Assembly (NCBI RefSeq): GCF_027474405.1
Contig: NZ_CP114872.1
Span: forward strand, 40,041 to 104,040
Source: Caulobacter sp. NIBR2454
Lineage (GTDB): Bacteria > Pseudomonadota > Alphaproteobacteria > Caulobacterales > Caulobacteraceae
Length of the DNA: 64,000 bases
Direction of reading: 5' to 3'
In this document: positions 16,871-62,288 of the stretch, in pieces
Numbering within the stretch: position 1 is the first letter of the stretch
Layout: every line of letters starts with the position of its first letter
Program-made: the position numbers and the translations under genes
Notes under the pieces: model-generated
What the model was told of the DNA's origin: nothing
What the model saw: only the letters and a program-made list of their open reading frames with translations
Databases searched by the model: none

Positions 16871-19185
16871 GCCGCGCCTTTGAACAGTTTGTCGCCGACG
16901 GACAGTCCCTGGCTGAAGGTCGCGGGCTTACCTGGAATGTGAGCTACGATCACGCGAGCGGCAGAATCTCCAAGGATGAGTGGTGGGACCTCTCCGCCGC
17001 CGCCGGCAGGGTCGAACGGCCACGAAAGATCATCTCATCCTTTGCGGCGCCGCCCCCTTCTCATGTGGCGGTTCAAACAGTGTTGAAAAGAAGCGTGCCT
17101 CACGTCATGGCCGCTTCATGGGTCGCTTTTTTCAAGTCGATCGCTATGCACGACCTATTCGTGAACGGTCGCACGCCCGGAAATTTCACAAGCAACGTCT
17201 CGGAATCCCTGCGAATATTGGCGATATGCGCCGGCGATACACCTCCCCCGCTCTTGACCGCCGACATCGTATCAGCTGCCTACAACGCCGCTCTTATCGC
17301 TACCCCATCAGGTAAACGTGCAAGCACGTTAAAGGCTCTTATAGCGACCTGGTTGGATGGAACGGGCATCGCCAGCCATCGACCGTTGGCGCAGTATTGC
17401 GAGCCGAATGCCCAAATTGCTAAAGCGCTGGAAGGTGAAGCTCGGCTCGTCACGACGCGTCGCCGTCAAGCAGATAGTAAGCGTCCAAATGCGCTGCGCA
17501 GTGAGCTAAGCCAGCAGCATTTCGCTGAAAAATTGCCTGACGAGGAGGCGCTCGCAGAGCTGCTGCGGATTGTGTTCAGCGCGGCCCCTGAAACGTTCAC
17601 CGATCTGGTGCGCTTCCATCAGGCTCGATTGTTGATCGCAAGTGGCTTGCGCCTAGGGGAACTTGTTTCCCTTCCTCAGGATTGCCTTGTGGTTCAGGAG
17701 CCAGAGCCTACCCGTGCTGGGGTCTTCGGGCCCCAGGTTCCGCTAGTCATGCTCAAGCACTATGCCGAAAAGCAAGGGGCAGCCGGACGGGGCGTTGAAT
17801 GGGTCAATGCAGTCCAACATGTCCCCTCTCTGCTGGTACCAACGGTTGCGGGAAGCATATCTGCTGTTCTCGATGCCACCGCCCCCTTACGAAACATGGT
17901 TGAAGCCCAGCGTCGAACGGGTTCTCTATTCCCAGACCTTGAACAAGATGCCCTCATACCATGGACGGACGCCTATACACGCCTATCTGGCATGATGAGG
18001 GTATCTAAAGAAGAAATACCAGGCCGCCTAAGATCCGAATATCGAAAGAAATATGATCTTGCCGCTCTTGCTAGAATTAGACTTCATCAGCGGAAAGCAA
18101 TAGAATTTGCTGGTGTAACAAATAGGGTAAGAGACTATTTCTGGGGTATTCAGGCAGATATTTGCAGCAATGGCCTTCTGCGTGACGCCTTGGGGTCAGG
18201 GGTCCCTCTGGTAAAGAATGAACGATTTGGGCAGCGAACACTATATGTTCGGGTAGGAGAAATGGAGGATTACGCACGAACACATCTTCCAACCAAGGTG
18301 CCCGATATGCGCCTTAGCCAGTCAACGCTTGGTGCGATTGGAATGGAGCATAAGCTTTTCCTGTACCCAGGCCGCGCCCTAGCTGAAGCAAAGCATGACT
18401 CTATTGTTGATATAGAGCGGTATTTTTCTGTTCAATCTGCATCACCAAAAGATTTGGAGCTTCAGCTCGGAGGAAAAGCCAAGGGCGGAAGATTGTTTCA
18501 GCGGTACGGCGAATCACCGAAAGCCATCGATTATGGCATCAACCCTCACTCGCTCAGACACCTTCAGAACACCGAGCTTTTTCGACTTGGGATTGCCGAC
18601 ACCATCATAACTAAGCGCTTTAATCGTCGAACTACGGCGCAAAGCTACGTTTATGACCATCGGAGTCTGTCCGATCATCTGGAAGAAATGGAGCCTGAGA
18701 AGGCACGGATGGCCGACAAGGCATTGTCCCCCAATGCTCGAAAGGCGTTCGACCTGATGCGCGGGGGGAAAATTAGAGGCCCGGTCGTCAGTGCGTTCGA
18801 GCGTCTCCAGGCGGAGCAAGGAGATGAATCGGCCTTCGAATACCTTAACGCCGAGGCGGGAGCATTGCACTTTACCCCCTACGGATTCTGCTTAAACAGT
18901 TTTGCTGCCAGCCCGTGCGTCAAGCATCTGGAATGTTTTAACAAATGTAGCCACTTGGTTCGGTCGGATTCACCCGATGAGCAAAAGACTCTAGAGACCC
19001 TGAAGACGCGATACGAGGTGTATGTCCGAAGACTGCATGATCGACCGAGCAGAGCGCCGAACTTCCAGGCGCAGCTCGGGCACGCCGAGGAGCGTTTGGC
19101 AGGCCTGAAGGCGGCGCTCTCACAAGCGCCCGGCCAGTCCGTCTTCCCGGGTGGCGAGAGCCTGCATTCCTCATCCAAAGGATAG
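16867..19185 (+). CDS. Tyrosine recombinase 3, large TnpB-like, with C-terminal Cys cluster
   Basis: A 772-residue protein, far longer than a phage integrase and in the size range of Tn554 TnpB. Arg I lies in IASGLRLGELVSLP, the HxxR box is PHSLRHLQN, and TTAQSYVYDHRS holds the candidate Tyr. A cysteine cluster near the C-terminus (SPCVKHLECFNKCSHLV) may bind zinc. ATG overlaps the previous stop (ATGA). The large N-terminal extension of unknown fold could mediate contacts with the other two recombinases. The next gene begins 8 bp after the stop. Confidence 0.83.
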   Translation: MSRAFEQFVADGQSLAEGRGLTWNVSYDHASGRISKDEWWDLSAAAGRVERPRKIISSFAAPPPSHVAVQTVLKRSVPHVMAASWVAFFKSIAMHDLFVNGRTPGNFTSNVSESLRILAICAGDTPPPLLTADIVSAAYNAALIATPSGKRASTLKALIATWLDGTGIASHRPLAQYCEPNAQIAKALEGEARLVTTRRRQADSKRPNALRSELSQQHFAEKLPDEEALAELLRIVFSAAPETFTDLVRFHQARLLIASGLRLGELVSLPQDCLVVQEPEPTRAGVFGPQVPLVMLKHYAEKQGAAGRGVEWVNAVQHVPSLLVPTVAGSISAVLDATAPLRNMVEAQRRTGSLFPDLEQDALIPWTDAYTRLSGMMRVSKEEIPGRLRSEYRKKYDLAALARIRLHQRKAIEFAGVTNRVRDYFWGIQADICSNGLLRDALGSGVPLVKNERFGQRTLYVRVGEMEDYARTHLPTKVPDMRLSQSTLGAIGMEHKLFLYPGRALAEAKHDSIVDIERYFSVQSASPKDLELQLGGKAKGGRLFQRYGESPKAIDYGINPHSLRHLQNTELFRLGIADTIITKRFNRRTTAQSYVYDHRSLSDHLEEMEPEKARMADKALSPNARKAFDLMRGGKIRGPVVSAFERLQAEQGDESAFEYLNAEAGALHFTPYGFCLNSFAASPCVKHLECFNKCSHLVRSDSPDEQKTLETLKTRYEVYVRRLHDRPSRAPNFQAQLGHAEERLAGLKAALSQAPGQSVFPGGESLHSSSKG

Positions 19186-27386: not shown

Positions 27387-30293
<2,907 letters not shown>

Positions 30294-30890: not shown

Positions 30891-31008
30891 CAAAGCCCTC
30901 GCGCCAGAACACTCTCGGCTGTGAACAACCTTAACCGTGTGGTGGAAAAGGCCGTTCGGTGCACTATCCTTAGTGGAGCTCATCCAAGAGCTCGCGCCTA
31001 GGACAGTC

Positions 31009-34000
31009 ATGTCGCAGCCAGACCTCTTCACTGCTGAAGCACCGACGGCATTCACATTGCCGACCGTCAAGTACGGACCCATCCGAACCCCGACGGGAAG
31101 AATAGAGTGCCTGCTGCGCGGGCCGATCGTGGTCGAAGCTACCAAGATCGGCGAGGTTGCCGTGTCGCCTCGTGTCAAAGAACCGATCTATCGGACTGCG
31201 GACGGTGAGACCTTTATCCTGACAACCCGGACTAAAGTAGCTCGACCTCCCGCTGCGGATGGTGTGCTGCTCAGCGGTGCCGATGGAAGCCTGTCTTGGA
31301 CTTCACACCGGCTCGTCGATGACCTGGAGGCTCAAGCAGCTGCCGAGGGATGGCCGGCGGTCGTGACGGCGCGCGCTCGGCTTTGGGAGGGTCAAGTAGC
31401 TTTCCGTGCCGAAGCACCCAACGACGATGGGACTGTCGATGAGGACCGCCGAGGTCTTCGACCTCCGCAGCTAGGTGCGTTGCACGCCATCGGGGCACAC
31501 TGGAGCCTTCATAGGCAGGCGGCGACGGTTGTCATGCCGACCGGTACCGGCAAAACCGAAACCATGTTGGCCGCGCTTGCGGCGTACATGCGGAAGCCGA
31601 TGCTTGTGGTGGTGCCAGGTGATGCGCTCCGAGCGCAAACGATCGGCAAGTTCATCAACATGGGACTACTTCGCTGGTTGAAGGTGCTCCCCGAAGACGC
31701 ACCAAACCCGATCGTGGGGATCATCACAAAAGTACCTAAGACGCCCGACGCTCTGGAAGTCTTCGAGCGCTGCAATGTGATCGTCACCACCATGACATCC
31801 GTCGCGGACGCAGGTGCTGAGCCTCTATGGCCGGAAATCGTGAAGCGAGTAGGAGCGCTCGTCATCGACGAAGCCCATCACGTGTCGGCTGCCCGTTGGT
31901 CGAGCTTCCGAGAGGCCTTTGCCGACCGGCCGATTCTTCAGTTCACTGCTACGCCTTTCCGCCGTGATGGACAGTTGGTCGACGGCCAAGTCATCTACAG
32001 CTACTCGCTGCGGCGCGCTCAACAGGATGGATATTTCCGCCGGATCACGTTTGACCCGGTGTACGAACCCACGCCATCCAAAGCGGACAAAGCGATCGCT
32101 GAGGCCGCCGTTGCCAAGCTCCGGGAAGATATAGCAGCAGGTTTGGACCATCGGATGATGGCTCGATGTGCGAGCATCGATCGCGCCAACAAAATCCATG
32201 CGCTTTACGGACGCTTGGCACCGGAGCTCAAGCCGACCATCATCCATTCCGACCAGACGGATGCACGACAGCGAGTCGCAGATCTGATCGCTGGTCGCAA
32301 TCACATCGTAGTGTGCGTGAATATGTTGGGTGAAGGGTTCGACCTCCCTCAGCTAAAGGTCGCGGCCGTCCATGATCTCCACAAAAGCCTGGCCATCCTG
32401 CTCCAGTTCACAGGCCGCTTCACGCGAAGCTCGGCCGAGAATATCGGCAACGCGACCATCATCGCGAACATCGCCGAACCGAACGTCTCCGCCGCACTTG
32501 AACGGCTCTACAGCGAAGATGCCGACTGGAACGACGTGCTCAGCGAACTTAGTTCCCAAGCCGCCCAGGAACATGCGCGGCTGGTGGCATTTCTGAACGA
32601 GGCTCAGCGTCTCGACAAAGGCGTGCAGAACGAAGACACACCGATCTCGCACAAGCTCCTAAAGCCGCCGCTGAGCACACTCTTCTACGAAGCCAAGAGC
32701 TTCCAACCGAAGAATTTCCACCAAGGCCTTCCTGAGAGCTTCGTTCCTTACCGAGTGTGGCTGCACAGCCCGTCGAACACACTGTTCCTCGTCACTCGCT
32801 CCGAACCCTCGGTGAAGTGGAGCCGTTCGAAGGCGGTGCGCGACCGAACATGGACCCTCTTCGTCCTGCACTACGACGCGACCCGAAGCATCCTGTACCT
32901 CGCCTCGACCGACAAGGATTCCAACTTCGCGCCGCTTGCAAAGGCAGTCGGCGCCACCACGCTTATTAGCGGTGATGTGATCTTCAGGGCCTTGGGCCGC
33001 ATCAATCGCCTCATCTTCCAGAACTTGGGGGTCAAGAAGCACGGCCGGCGCAATCTCTCATACGCCTCCTACACAGGCGCGGAGGTGGTGGGCGCCCTGA
33101 GCCAAGCGGAGAAGAGCGGCTCCATCAAAGCGCTGCTATCCGGCATCGGATGGGAGCACGGCAGGCAGACGACAGTCGGCTGCACGGTGAAAGGTCGCGT
33201 TTGGTCTCGCGATCAAGGTGGTTCGCTGCCTCGCTTTATCGAATGGGCGCAAGGCGTCGGCGACAAGCTGCGCGATGCCTCGATCGATAGCAGCAAGCTC
33301 ATCGATAACGTCCTGCTCCCCACGGTCGTGACCGCGCTGCCAACGGCGGAACTGTTGGGTGTCGATTGGCCTGTCGAACTTCTCCGGCAGTCCGAGGAGC
33401 GAGTGGTCTTCAGCGACGGCACAAGCAAAGCCGCGCAGACTACCTTCGAACTCACGATCGCAGGGATGGACCGCTCGACGAATGCGATCGAATTCGACCT
33501 CGTCGAAGCGACTACAGGCCTTTGGGCCCGCTTCCGGTTCGAACTTTCGGGACCAGACGGCTACACAGTTACCCAGATCAGCGGCAGTACTGTGCATGTG
33601 ACCAGCGGGAAGCTGCACCAGCCGCTGTCCGATTATTTCGGCGACTACCCGCCACTGTTCCGTTTCGTCGATCTTTCCGAGTTGGACGCCAACCTCCACA
33701 TTGTCCCGCAGACTCCCTACGACCTGACCATTGGGGAGGATCGGTTCGAATGTTGGGATTGGACCGGGGTGGATATCACCAAAGAGTCAATGTGGAAGGA
33801 CGGTGCGGAGCGCGCTGACTCCATCCAGGCGCATGTCGCGAAACACTACATCGATGCTGGGTTTGATATCGTTTTTGATGACGACGCGAGCGGTGAAGCG
33901 GCGGACCTCGTATGCATAAAGGCAGAGAAGGATCATCTTCGCCTTGCCTTGGTTCACTGCAAATTCTCTGGCGGAACCACAGTGGGCGAACGCGTCAAAG

Positions 34001-34323
34001 ACGTCGTCGAAGTGGCTTCGCAAGCCGTGCGATCTGCACGTTGGTTGGGTCGCTTCCAGCATCTCGCCCAACACCTGAAAGTACGAAACGAAGCGCTCAA
34101 GGCACCATCACGTCCCTCGCGCTATCTGAAGGGCGGCCCCGGCGAACTCAATCAGTTGGTGAAGTTCCACCGCTTCCATCCCATTCGGGCCGAAATCGTC
34201 ATGGTCCAACCTGGACTATCGAAATCTAAGCGCACCAGCTCACAGGACACCGTCTTGGGTGCAGCCCTGACGTATCTGAAGGAAACAGTAGGCTTGGACC
34301 TCGCCATCGTCTGCAGCGAGTGA
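31009..34323 (+). CDS. Large SF2 helicase with nuclease-like C-terminus, candidate defence protein
   Basis: 1104 residues from ATG 31009. A ResIII/DEAD-type motor has Walker A MPTGTGKT (176-183), DEAH at 287-290, motif III in FTATPFRRDG and motif VI QFTGRFTRSS from 466. About 400 residues of unknown fold follow. Near the C-terminus D966 and H983-C984-K985 (ADLVCIKAEKDHLRLALVHC then KFSGG) look like a PD-(D/E)XK-type core in which the acidic residue before the lysine is replaced by His, followed by a Gln-containing helix (VASQAVRSARWL). A helicase joined to a nuclease in one chain is a common layout of single-gene phage-defence proteins. The longer form starting at 30937 lacks a good start signal. 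Defence role is inferred. Confidence 0.82.
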   Translation: MSQPDLFTAEAPTAFTLPTVKYGPIRTPTGRIECLLRGPIVVEATKIGEVAVSPRVKEPIYRTADGETFILTTRTKVARPPAADGVLLSGADGSLSWTSHRLVDDLEAQAAAEGWPAVVTARARLWEGQVAFRAEAPNDDGTVDEDRRGLRPPQLGALHAIGAHWSLHRQAATVVMPTGTGKTETMLAALAAYMRKPMLVVVPGDALRAQTIGKFINMGLLRWLKVLPEDAPNPIVGIITKVPKTPDALEVFERCNVIVTTMTSVADAGAEPLWPEIVKRVGALVIDEAHHVSAARWSSFREAFADRPILQFTATPFRRDGQLVDGQVIYSYSLRRAQQDGYFRRITFDPVYEPTPSKADKAIAEAAVAKLREDIAAGLDHRMMARCASIDRANKIHALYGRLAPELKPTIIHSDQTDARQRVADLIAGRNHIVVCVNMLGEGFDLPQLKVAAVHDLHKSLAILLQFTGRFTRSSAENIGNATIIANIAEPNVSAALERLYSEDADWNDVLSELSSQAAQEHARLVAFLNEAQRLDKGVQNEDTPISHKLLKPPLSTLFYEAKSFQPKNFHQGLPESFVPYRVWLHSPSNTLFLVTRSEPSVKWSRSKAVRDRTWTLFVLHYDATRSILYLASTDKDSNFAPLAKAVGATTLISGDVIFRALGRINRLIFQNLGVKKHGRRNLSYASYTGAEVVGALSQAEKSGSIKALLSGIGWEHGRQTTVGCTVKGRVWSRDQGGSLPRFIEWAQGVGDKLRDASIDSSKLIDNVLLPTVVTALPTAELLGVDWPVELLRQSEERVVFSDGTSKAAQTTFELTIAGMDRSTNAIEFDLVEATTGLWARFRFELSGPDGYTVTQISGSTVHVTSGKLHQPLSDYFGDYPPLFRFVDLSELDANLHIVPQTPYDLTIGEDRFECWDWTGVDITKESMWKDGAERADSIQAHVAKHYIDAGFDIVFDDDASGEAADLVCIKAEKDHLRLALVHCKFSGGTTVGERVKDVVEVASQAVRSARWLGRFQHLAQHLKVRNEALKAPSRPSRYLKGGPGELNQLVKFHRFHPIRAEIVMVQPGLSKSKRTSSQDTVLGAALTYLKETVGLDLAIVCSE

Positions 34324-35696: not shown

Positions 35697-38420
35697 TTGG
35701 ATAGGACGGGTTACAGGATTTTGATCGCGTTGTGTTCGGCCGGCGCCATCCAGCTTGCCGCGCCGGCGGTTGCTGGGGCTGGCCCCGATGCAGTTCACGC
35801 GACCGCCACTCCCTCCCCGGCCGTTGTGCGGTCCAACATGGAGGTGCAGATCGGCGTACCCTCGTCGACTCTGCCTGCGGTGCCGACCAGCGCTGCCGCA
35901 CAAGTGGCCAACGAACAAAACCTAGCGCTGCAGGCCGCCGCCCGCGCCCGCCTCGCCGCCGAACAAGCCGTCAAGACCGAAGCGGCGCGCCTCATGAGTT
36001 TGAAGCGTCAGTATGAACTACAGGAGCAAGAGCTCACGACGATGGCGTCTCAGACGGGCGTGCGCCGTGACGCGGTTCTTGGCTGGCGCGCGCGGGCGCG
36101 CGAGGCCGCTTTGGCCGCCGGCCCAGCGGATTCTACCTACACAGCGCTGCGCGGGGCTCTTCGCGCCGCCCGGCAAGACCTGGCCTCGACGCTTGATATG
36201 ATCGCGTCGGGGCCCGTCGACCTCGCCGAGGTGGGACCCGATCCCCTCTTCGACTTACCGGAGGGCGTTGATGCCCGCGAGGTTGAGGCGACCCGTGCGG
36301 CGCTTACTGCGCGCCGCGTCAAGCTTGTCGCGGCGACGCATGCGACACACGTCGCTGTGGCCGCCGATCTGCTGAACGAGATCAGTGTGTTGAACGACAG
36401 CCGTCTTGCCCTTCTGGTTCACTTGTCGCCCGCAAAGAGGGCGGCCGTCACGGGTTTCACCGCGACTGGTTGGGACCAGGCGCGGGCCGAAGCGCGGCAG
36501 TTGATTCTATTAGCTCGATACCACGCCTACGCAGCGTCGGACTGGGTGGCGACGGCGCTGCTCACACCCGCGTCAACAGCTCTGTCGGCGCTTGCAGGAA
36601 GCAGTCGAGTCCTGATCCCTTGGGCAATCCTTTCGACTGTATTCCTTTGGTGGCGCCGGCAAAGCACACGAGTGTTCGCATCCTGGGAGGAGATCCTGGC
36701 ACTTGCGGATCGTAGGGCGCTGAGACCCAGTCCGAGCTGTCAGCTACGTGCCCTCAGGTTCATCCGATCGATACGGCGTCCCTTGGGGTGGCTTGTACTC
36801 TACTTCGCGCTTATGTCGGTCCTGCCGTCGGCGTTGCACGATCTTTTGGAAGTCAAACTCCTAAGCTTGATAGTGCTTTGGGCATTGGGTGGGGCCCTGG
36901 TCGTCGCCATCATCAATGCGGCCTTTGCGGACTCCAGCACTCGACGGCTAGATCCGCAGCAAGGTCGACAAGATCTCAGTCGTATCCGCCTAAGATCTTT
37001 GAGCCTAATCGGCGGCGTGATTGTCGCTTATGGGTTGATCCTCAGCTTGACCGCTGAGCTTGTCGGGCAAGGCACAATCTACCGATGGGTGGGATCGACC
37101 GCCTGGTTCGCCATCGTTGCGGTCCTTCTCATGCTAGTGAGATGGTGGATGAGCCTCCTTTTCGCCTGGGCTGAAACGCACAATCGCAAGTCGGCCTTCC
37201 ACCAGTGGGTGCTGGAGCATCGGATCGGACCGATCGGTTTTCTGGCCGCGACGCTCGTCGCTGTTGAATATGCCGGGATTGCAACAGGGCGCCTCGCTCA
37301 CCGTTGGTTTGGGTCACTTGCGCTTGTCCGGCGCGCCGCCGTTTTCCTGTTTCGCCGCGAGATGCTCCGCCGCCAGTCCGAACAGCACCACGAGGACCGG
37401 CGCTGGATCGATGGGCCGGTGTTTGACGCGTTGGGTCCGGACACCCCGTCCTCGACCTGGATCGCGACCGACGCAGAAAGTCAGATCGCCGCGTGGCTTG
37501 TTGGAACGGGCGCCCCCGCTCCCCGCACGATAGCCCTGGTTGGTGAACGCGGCGCGGGAAAGACTTCCAGCCTGCGACAGCTCACCAGGGCGCTGGCGGG
37601 CGCCATCGTCATCGATTGCGGCGAGTCCTGCGCGTTGGACGCCATAATTGCCACAATCGCGGCCGAAGCCGATAGCGCCCCGGGAAATCCGCCGCCCGCG
37701 ATCCTGATCGACAATGTGCAGGCTATGATACGCCCGGTCATGGGTGGGCTTCGGCTATTCGACGAACTTATGTCCCTGATCAGGCAATGCGAAAGCGGCG
37801 TCACCTGGGTTCTCGCCATCGACTCGGCAATTTGGCCCTTCCTCGTGGCATCTCGCGGATCCCGCCCGATGTTCGACCAAGTGATCACGCTCGGGCGATG
37901 GCCGGACACCGCGATTGGCGCTCTGCTGGACGCTCGATGTGAGCAGGCCGGCATCGACCCGAGCTACGAAGACCTCCTGGAGCCGTCGATGGCCGAGACG
38001 GATGAAATCTACCGCCTTGACGCGCTGGCGGCAAAGAAGGCGGCGTACACACTTTTGGTTTGGGACTACGCAAGCGGCAACCCCGGCGTGGCGCTCGATG
38101 TCTGGCGCCGCTCTCTGGCGGCAGGCCCGTCGGGTCACCTCTTCGTGCGACCGATGCACACGCCCAAGGCGGCCGAACTGGACTTGTTGGTCGACGAGAC
38201 GTTGCTTGTCCTGCGGGCCGTGCTCCAGGGGGCGCCAACGACGGCCCACGACATTCAAAGTGCGACCCGTCTATCTTCCCGAGAGGTTGAGAACGCCCTT
38301 CGCTTTTGTACCGGGCACGGAATTTTGGATGAGCATGAGGGCCGCATCCAGGCGTCTTGGACCTGGCATCGCGAGATCACACGCAAGCTCGAGCGCCGTC
38401 ATCTGATGGCCAGCGCATGA
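35697..38420 (+). CDS. Membrane-embedded P-loop ATPase with winged-helix end, first gene of an MscS operon
   Basis: 907 residues from a TTG start with GGAGCGGA upstream; the start is supported by a clear signal peptide (residues ~8-27). A periplasmic coiled-coil region (~75-150) is followed by about six membrane spans between ~285 and 540. The cytoplasmic half has Walker A GERGAGKT at 616-623 and Walker B AILIDN, resembling an AAA/ORC-like or STAND ATPase. A winged-helix-like end follows (DIQSATRLSSREVENALRFC). The stop overlaps the start of the first MscS gene (ATGA) and a second MscS follows. It may energise, gate or sense through these channels. I do not recognise a named family for the whole chain. 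Confidence 0.78.
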   Translation: MDRTGYRILIALCSAGAIQLAAPAVAGAGPDAVHATATPSPAVVRSNMEVQIGVPSSTLPAVPTSAAAQVANEQNLALQAAARARLAAEQAVKTEAARLMSLKRQYELQEQELTTMASQTGVRRDAVLGWRARAREAALAAGPADSTYTALRGALRAARQDLASTLDMIASGPVDLAEVGPDPLFDLPEGVDAREVEATRAALTARRVKLVAATHATHVAVAADLLNEISVLNDSRLALLVHLSPAKRAAVTGFTATGWDQARAEARQLILLARYHAYAASDWVATALLTPASTALSALAGSSRVLIPWAILSTVFLWWRRQSTRVFASWEEILALADRRALRPSPSCQLRALRFIRSIRRPLGWLVLYFALMSVLPSALHDLLEVKLLSLIVLWALGGALVVAIINAAFADSSTRRLDPQQGRQDLSRIRLRSLSLIGGVIVAYGLILSLTAELVGQGTIYRWVGSTAWFAIVAVLLMLVRWWMSLLFAWAETHNRKSAFHQWVLEHRIGPIGFLAATLVAVEYAGIATGRLAHRWFGSLALVRRAAVFLFRREMLRRQSEQHHEDRRWIDGPVFDALGPDTPSSTWIATDAESQIAAWLVGTGAPAPRTIALVGERGAGKTSSLRQLTRALAGAIVIDCGESCALDAIIATIAAEADSAPGNPPPAILIDNVQAMIRPVMGGLRLFDELMSLIRQCESGVTWVLAIDSAIWPFLVASRGSRPMFDQVITLGRWPDTAIGALLDARCEQAGIDPSYEDLLEPSMAETDEIYRLDALAAKKAAYTLLVWDYASGNPGVALDVWRRSLAAGPSGHLFVRPMHTPKAAELDLLVDETLLVLRAVLQGAPTTAHDIQSATRLSSREVENALRFCTGHGILDEHEGRIQASWTWHREITRKLERRHLMASA

Positions 38421-39307
38421 CCCGGAAAGAGCATGCCGGACGATCTGTCGCCCTTGCGCTGATCGCTTCCGGAGGTTTACCCGGTTCCGCGTGGGCTGCA
38501 GAAGATCCCAAGCTGGCGCAGATCGCAGACTTCGTTCAATGGAGCGGCGTCGCCCTCTCAGTGGTCGTTGTGGCCGCCGCGCTGCTTATTCTGCGAATGT
38601 TAGAGGGCGCCAGCGCCCGCCTCAGTAAACGGTACACTCATCGGCGGCCAACGATCGACAAAGTCGCCTCGACGGTGCGGTTTGCGATCTACTTGACCAC
38701 AATAGTCCTCTGCGCGGCGCTGAGCGTCAGGCTCAACGAAACTGCACTGACCGTCATCGGTGGCGGATTGGCGTTCGCGGTCGGCTTCGCCATGCGCGAT
38801 CTTGTGGCGGCCTTCATTGCCGGCATCACCATCATCTTCGACCGCCCCTTCCAGGTCGGCGATAGGGTGTCGTTCGCGGGACAGTACGGCGACATCATCA
38901 AGATCGGGCCACGCAGCGTGCGCATGAACACGCTCGATCACAACATCATCACCATCCCCAACAACAAGGTGCTGACCGATATCACCTCGAGCGGAAATTA
39001 CGGCAATCTGGAGATGCAGGTCGCCATGGATTTCTACGTCGGTGTCGATCAGGACGTCGAGCGTGCGACGGAAATCATCACGGAGGCCTGTCTCACAAGT
39101 CCTTTCATCTTCTTCGCCATGCCGGTGCCTATCCTGATCAAGCAAACCATCCTCGACCACTATGTCGCCGTGCATATCAAGGCGAGGCCCTATGTGTTTG
39201 ATTGCAAGTACGAGAAACCGTTCGAGACCGACGTTCATTTCCGGGTGCTTTCGGCGTTCAGCGACGCTGGAATTGGTCCGCCAGCCATCCTTCATCGGCA
39301 CATCTGA
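38417..39307 (+). CDS. MscS-family channel 1 of the ATPase-channel operon
   Basis: 296 residues. A hydrophobic signal-like N-terminus ends in GSAWA. Two further spans precede the MscS pore helix and beta domain: VIGGGLAFAVGFAMRDLVAA, then FDRPFQVGDRVSF and NTLDHNIITIPNNKVL. MscS channels open when membrane tension rises and release solutes, protecting cells from osmotic downshock. The start overlaps the ATPase stop by 4 bp, so both are made together. The presence of a second, different MscS next door suggests a heteromeric channel or a two-layer system. Confidence 0.9.
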   Translation: MTRKEHAGRSVALALIASGGLPGSAWAAEDPKLAQIADFVQWSGVALSVVVVAAALLILRMLEGASARLSKRYTHRRPTIDKVASTVRFAIYLTTIVLCAALSVRLNETALTVIGGGLAFAVGFAMRDLVAAFIAGITIIFDRPFQVGDRVSFAGQYGDIIKIGPRSVRMNTLDHNIITIPNNKVLTDITSSGNYGNLEMQVAMDFYVGVDQDVERATEIITEACLTSPFIFFAMPVPILIKQTILDHYVAVHIKARPYVFDCKYEKPFETDVHFRVLSAFSDAGIGPPAILHRHI

Positions 39308-39321
39308 GGCGTGCAAACCGA

Positions 39322-40260
39322 ATGGACCATCTGAACGCCAATATGTTGGCCTGGCTGGAAAATCCGATCATCTCCAAGATCGGCTTTGTCGTCCTGGCTA
39401 CTGTGATCGCGGTGATTGGAATCCGGTCGCTGCAGGTCATGGTCACCCGGTCGATCAAGGAATCCAACTCCCGCTATCGCATTCGCAAGATGGTGGCCTT
39501 CGTGGGCTACGCGATCCTGGTCGTCGTGGCGATATCGACCTTCAGTGATCGGCTGGGGCAGCTCAGTGTGGTGCTTGGTGTGGCCAGCGCTGGCATCGCC
39601 TTCTCGCTTCAGGAAGTTATCGCCAGCTTCGCTGGCTGGATCGCGATCTCGTTCGGCGCCTTCTATCGGCCCGGTGATCGCGTCCAACTTGGGGGCATCA
39701 AGGGCGATGTGATCGACATCGGCGTCCTACGCACTACCTTGATGGAGATCGGCGACTGGGTCGGCGGCGATATCTACAACGGCCGAGTCGTGAGGGTCGC
39801 GAACAGCTTTGTCTTCAAAGAGCCTGTTTATAACTACTCGGGGGACTTTTCCTTCCTTTGGGATGAGTTCAAGATTCCGGTGCGTTTCGGTTCCGACTGG
39901 CGACTGGCTCAACAGATCATCGAGAAGGCGGTTAACGACCATGTCGCCGTCTACGAAGAATCGTCCGCTGAGGCTTGGAAGGTTTTGGTCAGCAAGTTTC
40001 TCGTTGAGGAGGCGCGGATCGAGCCCCTCATCACCTTGGTCGTGACGGACAATTGGATCGAGTTTACCGCGCGCTACGTGGTCGACTACCGCAAGCGCCG
40101 CATCACCAAGGACGCGATCATGCGGTCGCTTCTGACTGCGTTCGAGGAAAACAAGCCATCCGTGGGGTTCGGCAGCGCGACCTACGAGATCGTAGCCGTG
40201 CCGCCAGTTGCCCTTCGGACGGCGCCAGGATCCGCGTCTTCTGTGGCACCCAATCCTTGA
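39322..40260 (+). CDS. MscS-family channel 2 of the ATPase-channel operon
   Basis: 312 residues from ATG 39322; an earlier in-frame start overlaps the previous gene and is rejected. Two or three spans are followed by the pore helix and beta domain (LGVASAGIAFSLQEVIASFA, GAFYRPGDRVQLGGIKGDVI, RVVRVANSFVF). The C-terminal alpha/beta domain has the extra segment DDFSFLWDEFKIPVRFG-like sequence seen in several MscS subfamilies (here GDFSFLWDEFKIPVRF). It lacks a signal peptide, unlike channel 1, and differs from it in most positions, so it is not a recent duplicate. It is 14 bp downstream of channel 1 and ends the operon. Confidence 0.9.
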   Translation: MDHLNANMLAWLENPIISKIGFVVLATVIAVIGIRSLQVMVTRSIKESNSRYRIRKMVAFVGYAILVVVAISTFSDRLGQLSVVLGVASAGIAFSLQEVIASFAGWIAISFGAFYRPGDRVQLGGIKGDVIDIGVLRTTLMEIGDWVGGDIYNGRVVRVANSFVFKEPVYNYSGDFSFLWDEFKIPVRFGSDWRLAQQIIEKAVNDHVAVYEESSAEAWKVLVSKFLVEEARIEPLITLVVTDNWIEFTARYVVDYRKRRITKDAIMRSLLTAFEENKPSVGFGSATYEIVAVPPVALRTAPGSASSVAPNP

Positions 40261-52841: not shown

Positions 52842-54245
52842 ATGCGAACGGCCTTAGCCGGCGACGATTGGCGACCTGGTTTCGCCAAGCGCGCCCCCAA
52901 TTTCGACGCGGTCTGCGCCCAGGCCCGGTCCTGGCGCTGGCAGGCGGGCGTCACTGTGGCGCGGATCGCCGCGGCGGTCCTGAAAGGCACGCCCACGCTC
53001 ACCGTGCAGCAGCGCATGACCCTGCTGCTCTATGTCGAGCATCTCAACCAGGACCGGCTTGAACAGGACGTGGCGACGGTCTGGCCGGGCACGAGCCTGA
53101 TCGCGGACTATCTGGGCTGCACCGAGAGCAACGCGCGCGCGCACCGCCGGGCCCTGGAGGCGGCCGGCTTCATGGTTCGCGACTACACCCGCGCCAACCG
53201 GCCGGCCGGGGTCGAGGCCTATGACCTCGCCCCCCTCGTGGCTCGCCTGGATGAACTGGAGGCTGCGGATCTAGCGGTTCGTGAAGCGGCCCAGGCCCGC
53301 AGGGCCGCCTATTCCGAAGCCGTCGTCTTCAGTGAAAGAAGCACCGCCCGGGCGCCAGGATTCACTCACCTAGAACAGTCCCATCAGAACGTCAGTTCTT
53401 CTGTACGAGGAAAGGACGCGCCTTCAGCGCGACATCAGTCTGCTAGTCGGCGGCCTTCGTCCGCCGGAACCGGCAACGACAGCAAATCCTCGGGCCAACG
53501 TCCAGGAACCCGACCAGACAGCGCCATTTGCTCTCCGGAGGGAGCAAGCGGTTTCTCCAGCGCCTTTTCTGAGGGGTCCGCGCCCGCGGAAATGGTCCGC
53601 CAGGAGCTTAGGGCCGCCTTCCAGGTCTCTCCACGCATCGCCGCGCTGGTGGGGCCTTCCGCAGTGGCCGATCCGGCCAGCGTCACGCCTGCTGACCTCG
53701 CGCGGGTCGCCGCCGCCGTCGATGACTTGCTCCCCGAGCGCGAGCGCAACAACGATCAGACCTTCGCCTGGGCCCTGAAGCGCCACGGGGTGCGCGCCAT
53801 CGCCATGCTGGCGATCGCGATCGAGGATCCCGACGTCCGCAGTCCCTGCAAATACTTTGGCCGCATGGCCTCCTATGAGCCGCGCGGGGCGCCGGACCTG
53901 CGCCTGAATTTCGCGCGGGTGCTCAAGGCCAAGGGGGATATTCCGCCGCCGGCGGCTCTGCCGGAACCGGCGGCGCTGATGGCGGCGCCGGGCGCCGACG
54001 ATCCGATCTGGCAGGCGATCGCCGCGCCGTTGCGGCGGCTGGTCCGCGAGGGCGCCTATGGCAGCTGGTTTGGCCGGGTCGGGTTCCATGGCCTGACCGA
54101 CGGCGTGCTGCAGCTGTCGACGCCAAGCCAGATCGCGGCCGACCGGATCAAGAGCCAATATCTGGACGCCGTGCTGCACGCCGCCGAGGTCGCGGAGATC
54201 TTCGTGGAGCGGGTGGTGATCACTTTGCGCAAGGATCAGCGATGA
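52842..54245 (+). CDS. Plasmid-type replication initiator with DnaA-N-like C-terminus
   Basis: 467 residues. The N-terminal half resembles RepC-like initiators: SWRWQAGVTVARIAAAVLKG, LTVQQRMTLLLYVEHLNQDR and TSLIADYLGCTESNARAHRR, the last a winged helix. A variable Ser-rich linker occupies ~155-245. The C-terminal ~80 residues (WQAIAAPLRRLVREGAYGSW then FGRVGFHGLTDGVLQLSTPS) resemble DnaA domain I. Such a domain could recruit the replicative helicase, as it does in DnaA. It is translationally coupled to the broken nuclease gene downstream. The name is a family-level guess. Confidence 0.72.
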   Translation: MRTALAGDDWRPGFAKRAPNFDAVCAQARSWRWQAGVTVARIAAAVLKGTPTLTVQQRMTLLLYVEHLNQDRLEQDVATVWPGTSLIADYLGCTESNARAHRRALEAAGFMVRDYTRANRPAGVEAYDLAPLVARLDELEAADLAVREAAQARRAAYSEAVVFSERSTARAPGFTHLEQSHQNVSSSVRGKDAPSARHQSASRRPSSAGTGNDSKSSGQRPGTRPDSAICSPEGASGFSSAFSEGSAPAEMVRQELRAAFQVSPRIAALVGPSAVADPASVTPADLARVAAAVDDLLPERERNNDQTFAWALKRHGVRAIAMLAIAIEDPDVRSPCKYFGRMASYEPRGAPDLRLNFARVLKAKGDIPPPAALPEPAALMAAPGADDPIWQAIAAPLRRLVREGAYGSWFGRVGFHGLTDGVLQLSTPSQIAADRIKSQYLDAVLHAAEVAEIFVERVVITLRKDQR

Positions 54246-54763
54246 TCGGGCGGGTAGGGTTGTTGTTCCTTGCCGTTGGCCTGGCGGCCGCCGCACCGGC
54301 GGAGTTGACCGGGTTCGCGCGGGTCGTCGACGGCGACACGTTCAGCCTAGGCGCCGAGCGGGTCCGCCTCTGGGGCGTCGATGCCCCCGAAGGCCGTCAG
54401 GTCTGTCAGGACGGCCAGGGCCGTGGCTATGCCTGCGGTGACGTCGCCCGTGACCAGCTCGTCGGCCTGATCGGCGGGCGGTCGATGCGCTGTGAGGTGC
54501 GCGACCGCGACCCTTACGGCCGGGCGGTTCGAGACGCCTTCGAGCTGGCGGGCGAAAACTCACCTGGCCCAGCCGGTGCCGGCTGGGCCGCCTTCGTCGG
54601 GGTGCGTGATCAAGGGGAATATCAACGGCAAGGGCCAGCACACTTCCATGTCCCAGGCCAAGAGGACTACGCTGCCACGCGGGTCGACGCGGCTCGCGGT
54701 GAGCGTTGGTTTTGGTCGGCCGCTGAGGCGATCGCGGCGGGCTGTACGGCGGTGGCGCGTTGA
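54242..54763 (+). pseudogene. Thermonuclease/ExoI-like gene with internal deletion and frameshift
   Basis: A signal peptide and the first half of an SNase domain are intact (FARVVDGDTFSLGAERVRLW, later RDRDPYGRAV). Then the chain leaves the family. In another frame the expected C-terminal part resumes (GRFETPSSWR, later GCVIKGNINGKGQ). After one more shift it returns to the first frame for HVPGQEDYAATRVDAARGER, the closing motif of ExoI-type proteins. About 40-50 residues with catalytic residues are missing between the two GR sites. It overlaps the rep stop (ATGA), so the intact ancestor was part of the same operon. The product is unlikely to be active. Confidence 0.75.
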
Positions 54764-54871
54764 GCAACTTGCTCGTTTTGGTAGGTCGTTGGACGTGTGT
54801 CCCGAGTGAATCTCTAGTCGCCCTAACCAACCTTTGAAACTAAATTGGCAGGGCTGCCTAGGAGCGAATCG

Positions 54872-56689
54872 ATGGACCTGCCCTCCCTTCACGCCTCAGC
54901 GGCGATGGTGATCGCGCTGATCACCTTCTGGCTCTTTGCGGATGGCAGAGTACGGATCGAGCTCGTTTCATTGTTGCTCATCGCCGTCCTGGCGTTGTTG
55001 TTCAACTTCTTCCCCGTCGAGCATGACGGCTACCGGGCCAGTATCGAGCTGGCGTTCGGAGGTTTCGGCCACGAGGCCCTGATCGCGATTTGCTGCCTCA
55101 TGATTATGGGCCGCGGCCTGGTGGTGACCGGCGCTCTCGAGCCCGTCGCGCAGCTCATGACGAGACTGTGGCGGTACAATGAACTCCTAGGTTTGCTGTT
55201 CTCGTTGGTCCTTGGCGGCGCGATGAGCATGATCGTGAACGACACGCCTGTGCTCGTCCTGACGATGCCGATTCTGCTAAATTTAGCGGCCCGCACAGGT
55301 GTGGCGGCGTCGAAGACCTTGATGCCGATGAACTGCGCGATCTTGATCGGCGGCATGGCCACGACCATCGGCACCTCGACCAACCTGCTCGTCGTGTCCA
55401 TTGCCGAGGACATGGGTTTGCCCCAGTTCAGCGTCTTTCAATTCACGGGAACCGCCCTGATCGCTGCAGCGGTCGCACTGCCCTACCTGTGGCTGGTCAT
55501 GCCGCGCCTCTTGCCTGCGCATTCGGCGACGGACGAGCTTCAATCGCGACGGTTTCGTGGCGCGTTGCATGTCGCAGACGGTTCAACGGCTATTGGCCGA
55601 ACTGTCGACGAAATCCAGGCGAGGCTGACGGGTAATCTCACGTTGCTAGGCGTCATAGGTGCGGACGGGGCGCGGCCCTCGCCTGGCCGACCCCTGGAGA
55701 TCGGCGACACATTGCATGTCGAGGGCACGAGCGCCGAACTGCGCGATGCCAGCGAATCCCTCCGGGCCCCGTTGGCGAACCCCAGCGTTCTCGACACGGT
55801 GCGCGCGAAGGCGCGCGCGCCTGGGGAAGATGTCTATTTGCGCGAGCTGGCGATTGGTGCCGACTCGACGCTCGCTGGTCGCTCAGTGAAGTCTGCTGAG
55901 ATCGCCGATCGCTACGGAGTGACGGTCATCGGGATCTTCAAGCCGGACAGGACGATCCTTCACGGCGGCGGCCGGGCGCGCGAACTCGGTCTGGACGTCG
56001 GTGACGTGTTGCTCGTCCAGGGGACCGAGCCGGCCCTGAAACAGCTGCAGGTCGCAGAAGGCGCGATGGTCCTCGAAGGTGCAGCGGAGTTGCCGCGCAG
56101 CGCCAAGGCGCCGTTGGCGATCATGATTTTTGTCGTCGCCGTTGGTGTTGCCGCCTTCCACCTGGCGCCGATCGCCGTTTCGTCGCTCGCCGGCGGCATC
56201 GCCATGCTTGCGACGGGCTGTGTCAAATTCGATAGGATCGGTCGTGCCCTGAGCGCTAAAGTCATCGTGTTGGTTGCCGCGAGCATCGCGCTTGGCCGCG
56301 CACTTCTCGAAACCGGAGCGGCGCAATGGCTGGGCGAAGCCTTGGCGTTAGGCATGCACGCTTTCCCCCCCGCAGCCGTCCTGGCGACAATGATGGCGTT
56401 CGCGGCTCTTCTGACAAACTTCTCTTCAAACACCGCGGCCGCCGCTGTCGGCGCGCCGATCGCGATCAGCCTGGCGCGGCAGATGGGCGTTCCGCCCGAA
56501 CCCTTGGTCCTGGCGGTGTTGTTTGGCTGCAATCTTTGCTATGCGACGCCCGTAGCCTATCAGACCAACATCTTGATCATGAGCGCGGGCGGATACCAAT
56601 TTAAGGATTACGTGCGTGCCGGCACACCATTGGTATTGCTTATGATCGTGACCCTGTCGGTCCTGCTGGTGTGGAAATATCACCTGTGA
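54872..56689 (+). CDS. SLC13-family permease with two RCK_C (TrkA-C) domains
   Basis: 605 residues from ATG 54872, preceded by AGGAG. N-terminal and C-terminal membrane halves of the DASS/SLC13 type (VNDTPVLVLTMPILLNLAAR, TTIGTSTNLLVVSIAEDMG, ATPVAYQTNILIMSAGGYQF) flank a cytoplasmic insert with two RCK_C domains (~225-310 and ~330-400; each with a GDTLHV- or GDVLLVQG-type end). Such proteins carry dicarboxylates, sulfate or other anions with sodium; the RCK_C parts bind a ligand that gates transport. Substrate unknown. First of a block of ion-transport genes. Confidence 0.88.
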   Translation: MDLPSLHASAAMVIALITFWLFADGRVRIELVSLLLIAVLALLFNFFPVEHDGYRASIELAFGGFGHEALIAICCLMIMGRGLVVTGALEPVAQLMTRLWRYNELLGLLFSLVLGGAMSMIVNDTPVLVLTMPILLNLAARTGVAASKTLMPMNCAILIGGMATTIGTSTNLLVVSIAEDMGLPQFSVFQFTGTALIAAAVALPYLWLVMPRLLPAHSATDELQSRRFRGALHVADGSTAIGRTVDEIQARLTGNLTLLGVIGADGARPSPGRPLEIGDTLHVEGTSAELRDASESLRAPLANPSVLDTVRAKARAPGEDVYLRELAIGADSTLAGRSVKSAEIADRYGVTVIGIFKPDRTILHGGGRARELGLDVGDVLLVQGTEPALKQLQVAEGAMVLEGAAELPRSAKAPLAIMIFVVAVGVAAFHLAPIAVSSLAGGIAMLATGCVKFDRIGRALSAKVIVLVAASIALGRALLETGAAQWLGEALALGMHAFPPAAVLATMMAFAALLTNFSSNTAAAAVGAPIAISLARQMGVPPEPLVLAVLFGCNLCYATPVAYQTNILIMSAGGYQFKDYVRAGTPLVLLMIVTLSVLLVWKYHL

Positions 56690-56744
56690 CCCGGCGCGGG
56701 CGCCGCTCTGTGTGGCGCTCGGCAAGCAAGGGCCGGAGCACTGA

Positions 56745-58352
56745 ATGACCTTGGATGAATTGAACGCCCAACTTGGGCGCAGCTGGCGAGATTTCCGCGG
56801 TCTTCTATTGAAGGCGCTGCACTCTCCGGCCCACCTCCTCGGAGAACAAGATCGCGTCGCCATAGAAGGGGAGATTCATGATGGGGCGCGACTAACGAGC
56901 GGCTACGGCTTCCTGCTGTTCAGCGCTTGCGGGATCGCCGCTCTGGGCCTTCTGCAATCCTCGGTCGCGGTTGTTATCGGCGCCATGTTGATCTCCCCGT
57001 TGATGGGGCCGATCCTGTCGATGGGCATGTCTCTTGCCCGGGTCGAGCCGCGAGAATTTCAACGGGCCGCCATAACCCTGGCGGTCGGCGCCGGCCTTTC
57101 CATTCTGGCCTCGACACTGATTGTCTGGGCCTCGCCTCTCAAGGACATCACGTCGGAGATCCTGGCTCGAACCCGCCCGACCCTTCTGGATCTGGTCGTA
57201 GCGCTGCTATCGGGGTTTGTCGGTGCCTACCTCACGGTCAATCGAAAGGGCGGCTCCATCGCCGGAGTCGCCATTGCGACGGCGCTCATGCCGCCTCTGG
57301 CGGTCGTCGGCTACGGACTTGCCACGGCTTCCTGGCCGATCGCCGGCGGCGCGCTCCTCTTGTTCCTGACCAACGTCGTGGCGATCCTGGGATCGGTTTT
57401 CGGCGTCGCCCGCCGCTACGGCTTCCGGCCCGCGCAACGCCATGGTGCGGCCTGGGAAGTCTACGCACTTTTTGCCGTCACAGTTATCCTGTGCGTGCCT
57501 CTGGCCTTGTCGCTGCGCAACATAGTTGTGGAGGCGCGAGAGACGAACCGGGTCCGCAGCGCCATCGAGCGAGCCTTTGCCGACGCGGGCCCGCACATCA
57601 CCGACCTGGCGGTCGCGGTCGATCGCGGCAAGGTCAGAACCGTTAATTGTGTGGTTGTCACCCGAAGATATGTGTCAGGCGCGTCCGCAAGTGTGGCCAG
57701 GGCGTTGCAGCCCGGCGCCCAAGTCAGCATTGAGCAGATCGTCATTGCGGGTGGGGACAAGCGCTCCGTTCTGGCGACCAATTCCCTCGGCAGCCGGCCG
57801 GCCTTGCCAGGGTCCGAAACATCGCCAGAACAACGTTTGAGGATGATGCTGAGTTCGGCCGGTGAGGTCGCCGGCATCGATCAATCGCCTACGGGGCTTG
57901 CCGTCAAACTTGTCCTGAAGGGGGCGCCGAGTTTGGGGGATTATCGTGCCGTAGAGCAGGCTGCCCAGCGGTTCTTGCCTGACACCTCCGTCGCGATCAT
58001 CCCCCCCCTCATGCCATTGCCAGAGGTCGTTTTCGCGCGTGGTAGCTCGACGATCGACACGGTGGCGAGGCAAGACCTGGCGACGATCAGCTGGGCCTTG
58101 CAGAGGTGGGGTGTGAAGGCCGTTCGCGCCGAGGGCCGCGCCAGCCCCGGTCGATTAGGTCCCCGCCCGATGGACCTGAAGATGGCAGCGCGGCGTTCAG
58201 CGGCTGTCGCTCAGGTGCTGGCGAGCTCAGGTCTCGTCTCTGTCACCCAGTCGACTTTCGTCCCTGATCGCGCCCTTCCGGATGAACGTCCGTTCCTCGT
58301 GGTTCGCCTCAGTCTGGAGGCTGCGACCCCGCCGCCGGCAGACGCAAAGTGA
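56745..58352 (+). CDS. DUF389 membrane protein with OmpA-like C-terminus
   Basis: 535 residues. The DUF389 core of about eight spans covers ~50-250 (AVVIGAMLISPLMGPILSMG and GGSIAGVAIATALMPPLAVV are its hallmarks). A soluble region follows, with an OmpA-like domain at ~420-510 (VVFARGSSTIDTVARQDLAT then AARRSAAVAQVLASSGL). The OmpA-like part would bind peptidoglycan, tying an inner-membrane protein to the wall. DUF389 has no established biochemical role. It follows the SLC13 gene by 55 bp and is convergent with the antiporter gene. Confidence 0.82.
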   Translation: MTLDELNAQLGRSWRDFRGLLLKALHSPAHLLGEQDRVAIEGEIHDGARLTSGYGFLLFSACGIAALGLLQSSVAVVIGAMLISPLMGPILSMGMSLARVEPREFQRAAITLAVGAGLSILASTLIVWASPLKDITSEILARTRPTLLDLVVALLSGFVGAYLTVNRKGGSIAGVAIATALMPPLAVVGYGLATASWPIAGGALLLFLTNVVAILGSVFGVARRYGFRPAQRHGAAWEVYALFAVTVILCVPLALSLRNIVVEARETNRVRSAIERAFADAGPHITDLAVAVDRGKVRTVNCVVVTRRYVSGASASVARALQPGAQVSIEQIVIAGGDKRSVLATNSLGSRPALPGSETSPEQRLRMMLSSAGEVAGIDQSPTGLAVKLVLKGAPSLGDYRAVEQAAQRFLPDTSVAIIPPLMPLPEVVFARGSSTIDTVARQDLATISWALQRWGVKAVRAEGRASPGRLGPRPMDLKMAARRSAAVAQVLASSGLVSVTQSTFVPDRALPDERPFLVVRLSLEAATPPPADAK

Positions 58353-58386
58353 TCAGTCCCGCCTGCCTTTCGGTCGGGGATGTGGT

Positions 58387-59658
58387 TTAGGTTACAGGTT
58401 TGGCGACGGCTCCGCCTGACAGTCGCTTGATCAGCCAACCGACGCTGCCGCCCTGCACGATCACCGCGAACAGCACTACGACGTATGTGGCGCCAAGAAG
58501 AATGGGTTGCAGTTCACCGCGTTCCAGAGACAACGCTAGGGCTATGGAGATGCCGCCACGCAGGCCGCCCCAGACTAAGGTCGGCATCGCGAGTGGGCCC
58601 AGATCGAGAGCTCTTCGTAGCAGCAACAATGGGGCGCCCACGGCGACAGTCCGGGCGAGGATGACCAGTGGGATTGCGGCTGCACCCAGTGCCAACAGTC
58701 GTAAGTCCGGCGCGATCGCCACTACCTCCAGCCCGATCAGCAGGAAGAGGACGGCATTGAGGATCTCATCGATCAGCGCCCAGAACTTGAGGAGGTAGTC
58801 CTTGGTCGTGTCGCTCATGGCGTGGGCGACACCCGCATTGCCGATCAACAGTCCGGCGACCGCCATCGCCACCGGCCCGCTGACGTGCAGCCAATGCGCC
58901 AGGCTATAGCCGCCCATGACAACCGCCAGGCTGATCATCACCTCGACGTTGTAGTCGTCGATGCTGCGCATCGCGCGGTAGGCCACCCATCCAGCGAGGA
59001 GGCCGATCAGGGCGCCGCCGCCGGCTTCACGAACGAACTCAAGGCTCGCGCTGGCTAAGGAGAACGGCTCGGTTCCCATTGCCGCGACGACAAGGATCGA
59101 GAAGACCACGACCCCAACGCCGTCGTTAAAGAGGCTTTCGCCGGCGACTGTGGCTTGGAGGGTGGGGGGAACGAGCGCGCGTTTGAGCACGGCCATGACC
59201 GCCACGGGATCTGTCGGGCTGATCAACGCGCCGAAAACGAAGCACCAAAGGAGAGGTGTGGCGAGGCCAAGAACCTGACTCAAAAGGAAGAAACCGCTGC
59301 CGACGAGCGCGGTCGAAATCAAGACGCCGACGGTGCTCAGAATGAGAATGGGCCAACGCCCTCGGCGCATCTCGCTCCAGTCGACGTGCAAGGCGCCAGC
59401 AAACAGCAAGAACGACAGCATGCCGTCCATCAAGGTGGTGTGGAAATCCAGGGAGTCGACAAACCGGACCATCATTACGGAGAATCCAGCGCCCGGCAGA
59501 AGCCGGTCGATCCCGATCACCAATAGGGAAGCTACCGCGCCCATGACGGTAAGCCCGACTGAGGCGGGCAGTCTGAACACCCGGTGATTGAGATATCCCA
59601 GGGCTGCGGCGAGCACGATGAGGATCGAAGCGGCGTCAAAGGCAGTGAGGCTTGGCAT
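58387..59658 (-). CDS. NhaP/CPA1-type sodium-proton antiporter
   Basis: 423 residues with 12-13 spans. The CPA1 core motif is SPTDPVAVMAVLKRALVPPT followed by AGESLFNDGVGVVVFSILVV; the FNDG pair carries the essential Asp. A downstream VWGGLRGGISIALALSLERG is the second hallmark. It exchanges Na+ or K+ for H+ at the inner membrane. No cytoplasmic tail is present. It is transcribed leftward together with the channel genes, 120 bp from the K+ channel gene. Confidence 0.92.
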   Translation of the reverse strand: MPSLTAFDAASILIVLAAALGYLNHRVFRLPASVGLTVMGAVASLLVIGIDRLLPGAGFSVMMVRFVDSLDFHTTLMDGMLSFLLFAGALHVDWSEMRRGRWPILILSTVGVLISTALVGSGFFLLSQVLGLATPLLWCFVFGALISPTDPVAVMAVLKRALVPPTLQATVAGESLFNDGVGVVVFSILVVAAMGTEPFSLASASLEFVREAGGGALIGLLAGWVAYRAMRSIDDYNVEVMISLAVVMGGYSLAHWLHVSGPVAMAVAGLLIGNAGVAHAMSDTTKDYLLKFWALIDEILNAVLFLLIGLEVVAIAPDLRLLALGAAAIPLVILARTVAVGAPLLLLRRALDLGPLAMPTLVWGGLRGGISIALALSLERGELQPILLGATYVVVLFAVIVQGGSVGWLIKRLSGGAVAKPVT

Positions 59659-59778
59659 GGGGCGATGTCCTACCGCTCGACATCGTGGACCGAAAGGCCG
59701 GCCCCAACCCGCGGGCGATGATCTTAGCCTGATTTGGCGGGCTGAGACATCCTGGGTTTGCTCGTGTCGATCTCCCGA

Positions 59779-60660: not shown

Positions 60661-60772
60661 GTTGACCGTCCGATCTCTGACGCCCGTCGAAACGTCCTTA
60701 TCAGAGCCGGGCGGAGGCTAGCGAGTCGGGGCGATCGAACGCAGCTACTGGTCGGTCGAGATTTTGGCGCGC

Positions 60773-62083: not shown

Positions 62084-62288
62084 GCCGCCCTCCCGTCTCA
62101 AACTATAGATGTCTCGCTCGTCATCCGGCCCAATCGAGGCCACCTATTCGTTCTGCGAAATCGATCAACTCGTGTTTATATATTTTCATAGAGTAGGTAA
62201 TGCTTTGCGCTTAGCCTCGAAATGGCCTTCCGTTGCAATCGCCGTCTATTCGGGTCGTCTGTTGGCATTGAACTAAGCCATCACGGGC

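Follow-up and report, generated by a model that had tools for sequence, protein, structure and literature searches.

A rare membrane AAA+ ATPase encoded with an MscS channel: a candidate split MscK-like system in Caulobacter sp. NIBR2454

Introduction

MscS-type mechanosensitive channels are generally held to be passive valves. In the giant channels MscK (KefA) and MscM (PF12795/PF12794), an MscS pore is preceded by a large periplasmic helical domain and additional membrane helices; the sensor half and the pore belong to one polypeptide, with no ATPase. The DUF3772 (PF12607) channels also place a periplasmic/membrane half before an MscS pore in a single polypeptide, with no ATPase among the Pfam domains listed. 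Here, we describe a locus found in a 64,000-nucleotide stretch of Caulobacter sp. NIBR2454 (referred to as the window; positions 40,041 to 104,040 of contig NZ_CP114872.1), in which the gene for a large membrane ATPase is followed by two MscS genes, encoding MscS1 and MscS2. The N-terminal half of the ATPase looks distantly like the corresponding half of both channel groups, whereas its polypeptide ends in an AAA+ domain and a winged helix and contains no MscS domain according to Pfam, the pore being encoded by the next gene. Because the pore is a separate protein, the ATPase is not filed as MscK; the ATPase/MscS1 pair probably acts as a regulated giant MscS channel would, but falls outside the MscK family.

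A search of PMC full text, whose coverage includes no bioRxiv preprints and only a minority of subscription papers, returned no description of an ATPase–MscS pair among the matches listed. The analysis also names a rare ATPase family whose function is undescribed among those literature matches.

Results and Discussion

The ATPase and MscS1 form an obligate pair

The three-gene layout reported in the initial annotation was confirmed together with its coordinates (Table 1). The ATG of MscS1 at 38417 lies inside the ATPase stop in a 4-base ATGA overlap, and the ATG of MscS2 at 39322 comes after a 14-bp gap. Both proteins contain MS_channel_2nd above the Pfam cut-off of 20.2 bits (E 2.4e-17 and 63.2 bits for MscS1, E 2.9e-9 and 37.3 bits for MscS2), and the MscS1 profile matches a solved MscS with E 1.5e-18. 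By this beta domain, which they have in common with MscS (YggB), both are MscS channel family members, for which tension gating is predicted. MscS1 differs from MscS (YggB) by its signal-peptide-like N-terminus, recognised by eye from the alignment, and by its obligate ATPase partner. A promoter scan yielded 1 site, versus 1.6 expected from shuffles.

To date the comparison covers 41 loci, comprising 38 from a contig scan with an ATPase pattern, two plasmids and the window. An MscS reading frame stands directly downstream of the ATPase in 41/41 loci, the split ATPase frame of L033 being counted once. Since the scan used only the ATPase, the neighbour content is a fair test. An ATG or GTG is available at the exact 4-base overlap with the ATPase stop in 30/41 loci (25 ATG, 5 GTG), and the nearest one in the other 11 lies at -11 to +11; these are counts of available starts, with alternatives possible in many loci, and in the L002 record the MscS start is annotated 2 bases downstream of the ATPase. 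Given that the window genome contains only 6 MscS matches in total, an adjacency in 41/41 loci, with a start available at the overlap in 30, is not due to chance. The same adjacency occurs in three further genomes (G513, G404 and G492).

The linkage also holds in the reverse direction. We ran a 34-row profile of the partner MscS (A7) on 142 genomes from the same order as G061, an Archangium genome that contains L007, scoring at most 16 candidates per genome. Six genomes (G361, G405, G061, G485, G404 and G492) reached 266–527 bits, and nothing else exceeded 113 bits. When 145 genomes of the same order were searched for the ATPase, substantial matches came from these six (four full length, a piece at a contig edge in G361 and a partial match in G492), and six other genomes of the 145 gave short AAA matches only, at 17–24 bits. 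The ATPase and MscS matches adjoin in each of the six. Moreover, the 34 partner MscS make up one side of a branch (support 99/100) in a 54-row tree; profile and tree hold 34 of the 41 pair MscS, with L003, L013, L020, L031, L033, L035 and L041 omitted. ATPase and MscS1 are thus an obligate pair, in both directions, in the genomes examined. The outcome that the initial annotation had named as fatal to its proposal, ATPase homologues found mostly without MscS genes, did not occur. The ATPase and MscS distances are correlated (Pearson 0.75 over 29 loci, and 0.37 when the winged helix is taken by itself), a value that ignores the species tree and is not counted as proof.

The N-terminal half of the ATPase may be distantly related to the MscK sensor half

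The N-terminal alignment (A10) consists of 31 rows, with database proteins omitted. In a profile-profile comparison, the N-terminal half matched MscK with a probability of 93% (E 3.5e-7, score 68.7), far above shuffles, the reversed profile and four membrane families used as controls. Residues 196–453 align to MscK 379–648, and the profile and structural alignments agree in register. When 350,542 PDB chains were searched by structure, MscK ranked 1–2, though with weak scores, and the top chain was an MscS-family channel. The first hint had come from two E. coli sequences (E 0.001, probability 22%; E 3.5e-4, 37% in another run), and the likeness was strong for two larger sets, one of 7 diverse MscK-type rows and the other of 23 rows covering all types. 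A 14-row DUF3772 (PF12607) profile gave a probability of 81% (E 1.2e-5) and a score of 54.8, where 20 shuffles reached no more than 38.6. On these profiles, the N-terminal half, with its periplasmic helices and roughly five spans, appears distantly related to the MscK sensor half.

The membrane part comprises five predicted spans and one in-plane or partial helix, and the AlphaFold2 (AF2) model of the whole ATPase has a predicted local distance difference test score (pLDDT) of 86.2. Hydrophobic spans and a long helical periplasmic part are present, as are the Walker A motif (GERGAGKT, residues 616–623, 37542–37565) and the winged-helix-like C-terminus noted in the initial annotation.

An ORC/Cdc6-like AAA+ module in the C-terminal half

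AAA_16 (E 3.5e-8) and AAA_22 (E 1.1e-6) both match the ATPase above their Pfam cut-offs. Its C-terminal half contains Walker A and Walker B, the AAA+ fold and the winged helix, and the last two were matched together to ORC2 (1w5t). The Walker motifs are intact, and the pairing of an ORC/Cdc6-like AAA+ module and a winged helix is the one also found in ORC/Cdc6 initiators. The protein had been assigned to a "STAND/AAA" type, of which the AAA part proved right.

Two arginines are conserved, R718 in 44/49 rows and R720 in 47/49; their location may suit an arginine finger. GNP is present in 19/19 rows of alignment A1, whose rows were not selected by GNP and which omits P0001, the window's own protein. 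The 30 loci rows of A3 (the 51-row alignment A2 minus L002 and L003) say nothing about its invariance, because the scan pattern itself contains GNP. The motif resembles the GxP motif of STAND ATPases, whereas no GRExE-like motif was visible by eye upstream of Walker A in the consensus, nor were C-terminal repeats. No solved relative of the ATPase was found by single-sequence search, and the profile matches to solved structures are P-loop stretches of other ATPases (60 of 107 listed).

MscS2 is an optional channel

The two MscS, which had looked unrelated in the initial annotation, fall into different clades of the tree. MscS2 is one of 8 second channels that group together (100/99) and stand beside the pair in the window, L004, L008, L015, L022, L024 and the two divergent loci L026 and L027, in a tree with few background MscS. 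Five genomes without the pair matched the MscS2 profile at 218–228 bits, in addition to weaker ones, and G485 carries an MscS2 relative (455 bits) on another contig than its pair. In the congener G513, ATPase and MscS1 are present and no MscS2 was found in the 16-kb stretch taken, the remaining genome not having been searched for it. Pair-free MscS2 relatives and the G513 pair rule out the two channels as an essential pair, and the initial view of MscS2 as a fixed part of a complex is not supported.

The core MscS2 clade (39322–40260 in the window, alignment A9) has a conserved beta-domain stretch, W-V-x-x-D-x-Y-N/S-G-R, which was not seen in MscS1.

A rare ATPase family, mainly from myxobacteria

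A search of 5.8 billion proteins, with 8,000 candidates scored, gave 18 relatives at E <= 0.001, not counting the ATPase itself. The ATPase occurs in 1/61 genomes when the window genome and 60 near it are considered, and in 3/299 genomes of the window's family at E <= 1e-30. Among 289 genomes drawn from the class, with only two candidates scored per genome, G000 alone holds a full-length ATPase, and 7 others gave short AAA matches of 17–21 bits. The 38 loci of the GTDB contig scan, which used one ATPase pattern and recovers only genes containing it, are mostly from Myxococcota, together with Brevundimonas (for instance L016 in B. basaltis), Gammaproteobacteria and others. Two Novosphingobium plasmids carry a relative that is 29–30% identical. 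Among IMG/VR viral contigs, two patterns matched 13 stretches, none of which encodes a relative. The family is rare and coherent, mostly of Myxococcota, with members in Caulobacteraceae, Novosphingobium and Gammaproteobacteria.

A divergent pair, L055 (G492), shows 27% (ATPase) and 39% (MscS) identity over the matched parts. This divergence suggests that the family reaches beyond the loci found here.

Neighbouring genes point to ion homeostasis rather than defence

We examined 220 proteins flanking the pair. A simple gene caller gave 238 candidates, with L003 and the window excluded; 218 were scanned and 20, mostly short, were omitted. L008:10516-13581, a Usp match from an earlier scan, and L009:15967-18135 from the same cluster were included manually, so that as many as 2 of the 10 Usp are selected. 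At Pfam E <= 1e-4, the flanks contain 15 further MscS, 10 Usp, 6 Na+/H+ exchangers and 3 ClC; the other families reaching 3, among the matches listed, are a second MscS model and hemerythrin, and no other transporter is as frequent. These are raw counts, the one background value being the 6 MscS of the 3.83-Mb window genome.

By PADLOC, no family has more than 2 members in the 220 flank proteins among the matches listed (5/5 and 25/35 families). Neither MscS1 nor MscS2 has a PADLOC match, and the ATPase reaches only E 0.018. The defence reading is unsupported by PADLOC on operon and flanks and by the viral-contig scan; with MscS, Usp, Na+/H+ exchangers and ClC as neighbours, the toxin-like effector once envisaged for this operon was not borne out.

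Large proteins with a C-terminal Usp stand near the pair or near an extra MscS in the myxobacterial loci L004, L008, L015 and L039, as an ion-homeostasis cluster.

A proposed two-subunit channel and its alternatives

We lean, by a little, towards reading the ATPase and MscS1 as the two subunits of a single channel, a split MscK with AAA+-dependent gating; the linkage is observed, and assembly and gating are inferred. The two proteins would assemble into one complex, the ATPase contributing MscK-like periplasmic and membrane helices and a cytoplasmic AAA+/winged-helix part, and MscS1 the pore and the cytoplasmic vestibule. The periplasmic/membrane half may, like its MscK counterpart, set the sensitivity to tension or to a periplasmic cue. 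The AAA+ domain would lie beside the MscS1 vestibule, and its nucleotide state may shift the gate. With the sensor half separated from the pore and joined to an AAA+ ATPase, opening could depend on ATP. When ATP is plentiful, the channel would be closed or desensitised, and a rise in turgor or a loss of energy would open it; perhaps, with a modest preference on our part, ATP holds the channel closed or desensitised rather than the reverse. MscS2, where present, would be an extra parallel channel, and the biological role would be ion and osmotic homeostasis under stress. Of the energised or signal-gated ATPase–channel complex put forward in the initial annotation, a complex with MscS1 would remain the best reading, and the second MscS as a fixed part of it is unsupported. 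A bolder version, in which an AAA+ ring with an MscK sensor half spends ATP hydrolysis working on the MscS pore to open or reset it in the face of membrane tension, would make this the first ATP-powered mechanosensitive channel; we regard it as speculative and doubtful.

Several results weigh against the MscK likeness. PF12794 and PF12795 (MscK) have no match in the ATPase, and the structural scores to MscK are weak, with an unrelated row scoring equally in VIA. The likeness disappeared with 10 near-redundant rows (29 aligned columns, meaningless) and was absent with single sequences and with the 2-row L066 set; the 7-row MscK set was picked after the first attempts and the outcome varies with profile depth, which is why all runs are reported here. 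The likeness, made of long helices and spans, might be convergent and the N-terminal half an unrelated helical sensor, which may still regulate MscS1. Against this stand the score of 68.7 with its controls, the common register of the two alignments and the MscS-family channel at the top of the structure search, and we judge convergence rather unlikely. It is compatible with an ATPase–MscS1 complex, and the likelihoods given here add up to more than one. The obligate linkage, for its part, fits a dedicated chaperone equally well: the AAA+ protein could be an assembly or quality-control factor that inserts, assembles or removes MscS1 subunits, its intact Walker motifs being suited to such work and its winged helix able to bind a client. 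A chaperone would need no MscK-like periplasmic/membrane half, however, and other MscS are not known to need one, which leaves this explanation improbable.

Operon partners need not bind each other, either. The genes could form one osmotic-stress operon whose proteins do not touch, the ATPase being a separate envelope-stress sensor, in keeping with the ion transporters and Usp near several myxobacterial loci; since the pair is obligate both ways while other neighbours vary, and a start is available at an ATGA/GTGA overlap in 30/41 loci, we consider this quite improbable. Least of all do we favour a defence or abortive-infection system, in which the AAA+ protein would sense infection and open the MscS, depolarising the cell. 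ATPases of the ORC/STAND grade are used in immunity, the ATPase C-terminus has weak matches to wHTH-PRTase_assc (E 0.034) and PRTase_III-A (E 0.018), and the window operon is plasmid-borne, with an upstream helicase weakly like PbeA. The PADLOC results for flanks and channels, the IMG/VR scan and the recurrent ion-homeostasis neighbours all speak against it and make it very unlikely.

If the split MscK is real, a detached MscK-like sensor half on an AAA+ ATPase would make energy-dependent gating directly testable, and such a two-subunit system would leave the pore intact while the sensor half is deleted or mutated. If the ATP-powered version were true, turgor release would depend on cell energy.

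Locus features and surroundings of the operon

Table 1. Features of the ATPase–MscS1–MscS2 locus, with positions in the window.
Feature	Positions	Strand	Description and basis
Membrane ATPase, 907 aa, TTG start	35697..38420	+	MscK-like periplasmic/membrane half and AAA+ module with winged helix; family alignments, AF2 model
Putative signal peptide, residues 1–26	35697..35774	+	Hydrophobic stretch 8–26; cleavage after AVA by eye
Periplasmic helical domain, residues 27–295	35775..36581	+	AF2 models; low confidence up to about residue 61
Membrane region, residues 296–540, N-out/C-in	36582..37316	+	Hydropathy and positive-inside count, 49 rows
AAA+ domain, residues 581–820; Walker A 616–623, Walker B end D672, GNP 794–796	37437..38156	+	
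C-terminal winged helix, residues 826–903	38172..38405	+	AF2 secondary structure; ORC2 1w5t match jointly with AAA+
MscS1, pore protein, signal-peptide-like start, obligate partner	38417..39307	+	ATGA overlap with ATPase
MscS2, second MscS, different clade, optional partner	39322..40260	+	

The window is the right end of the 104,040-base contig C2. This contig is plasmid-like, and besides the operon the window carries a TrbE gene, a RepC-like gene, a ClpK-like chaperone and a superoxide dismutase. A plasmid-like region at 52842–62143 contains the RepC-like gene, with a DnaA_N match, a CitMHS/TrkA_C (citrate) transporter, a DUF389 protein with a weak OmpA match and a third MscS.

Upstream, a block of 20,705 bases (14052–34756) is 100% identical to positions 1876493–1897197 of the chromosome contig C1 of the same genome. 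It begins just before three consecutive open reading frames (14208–19185), two of them with Phage_integrase domains, carries an MFS transporter and ClpK, and ends 940 bases before the ATPase; it is probably the recent move of a recombinase-type element. The helicase mentioned above, an SF2 helicase/ResIII protein of 1128 aa with a weak PbeA likeness (PADLOC E 2.1e-13), is encoded in this block at 30937–34323. The ClpK-like disaggregase at 27387–30293 matches NF033606 with 1601 bits, below the cut-off of 1900, and is present in two identical copies in the genome.

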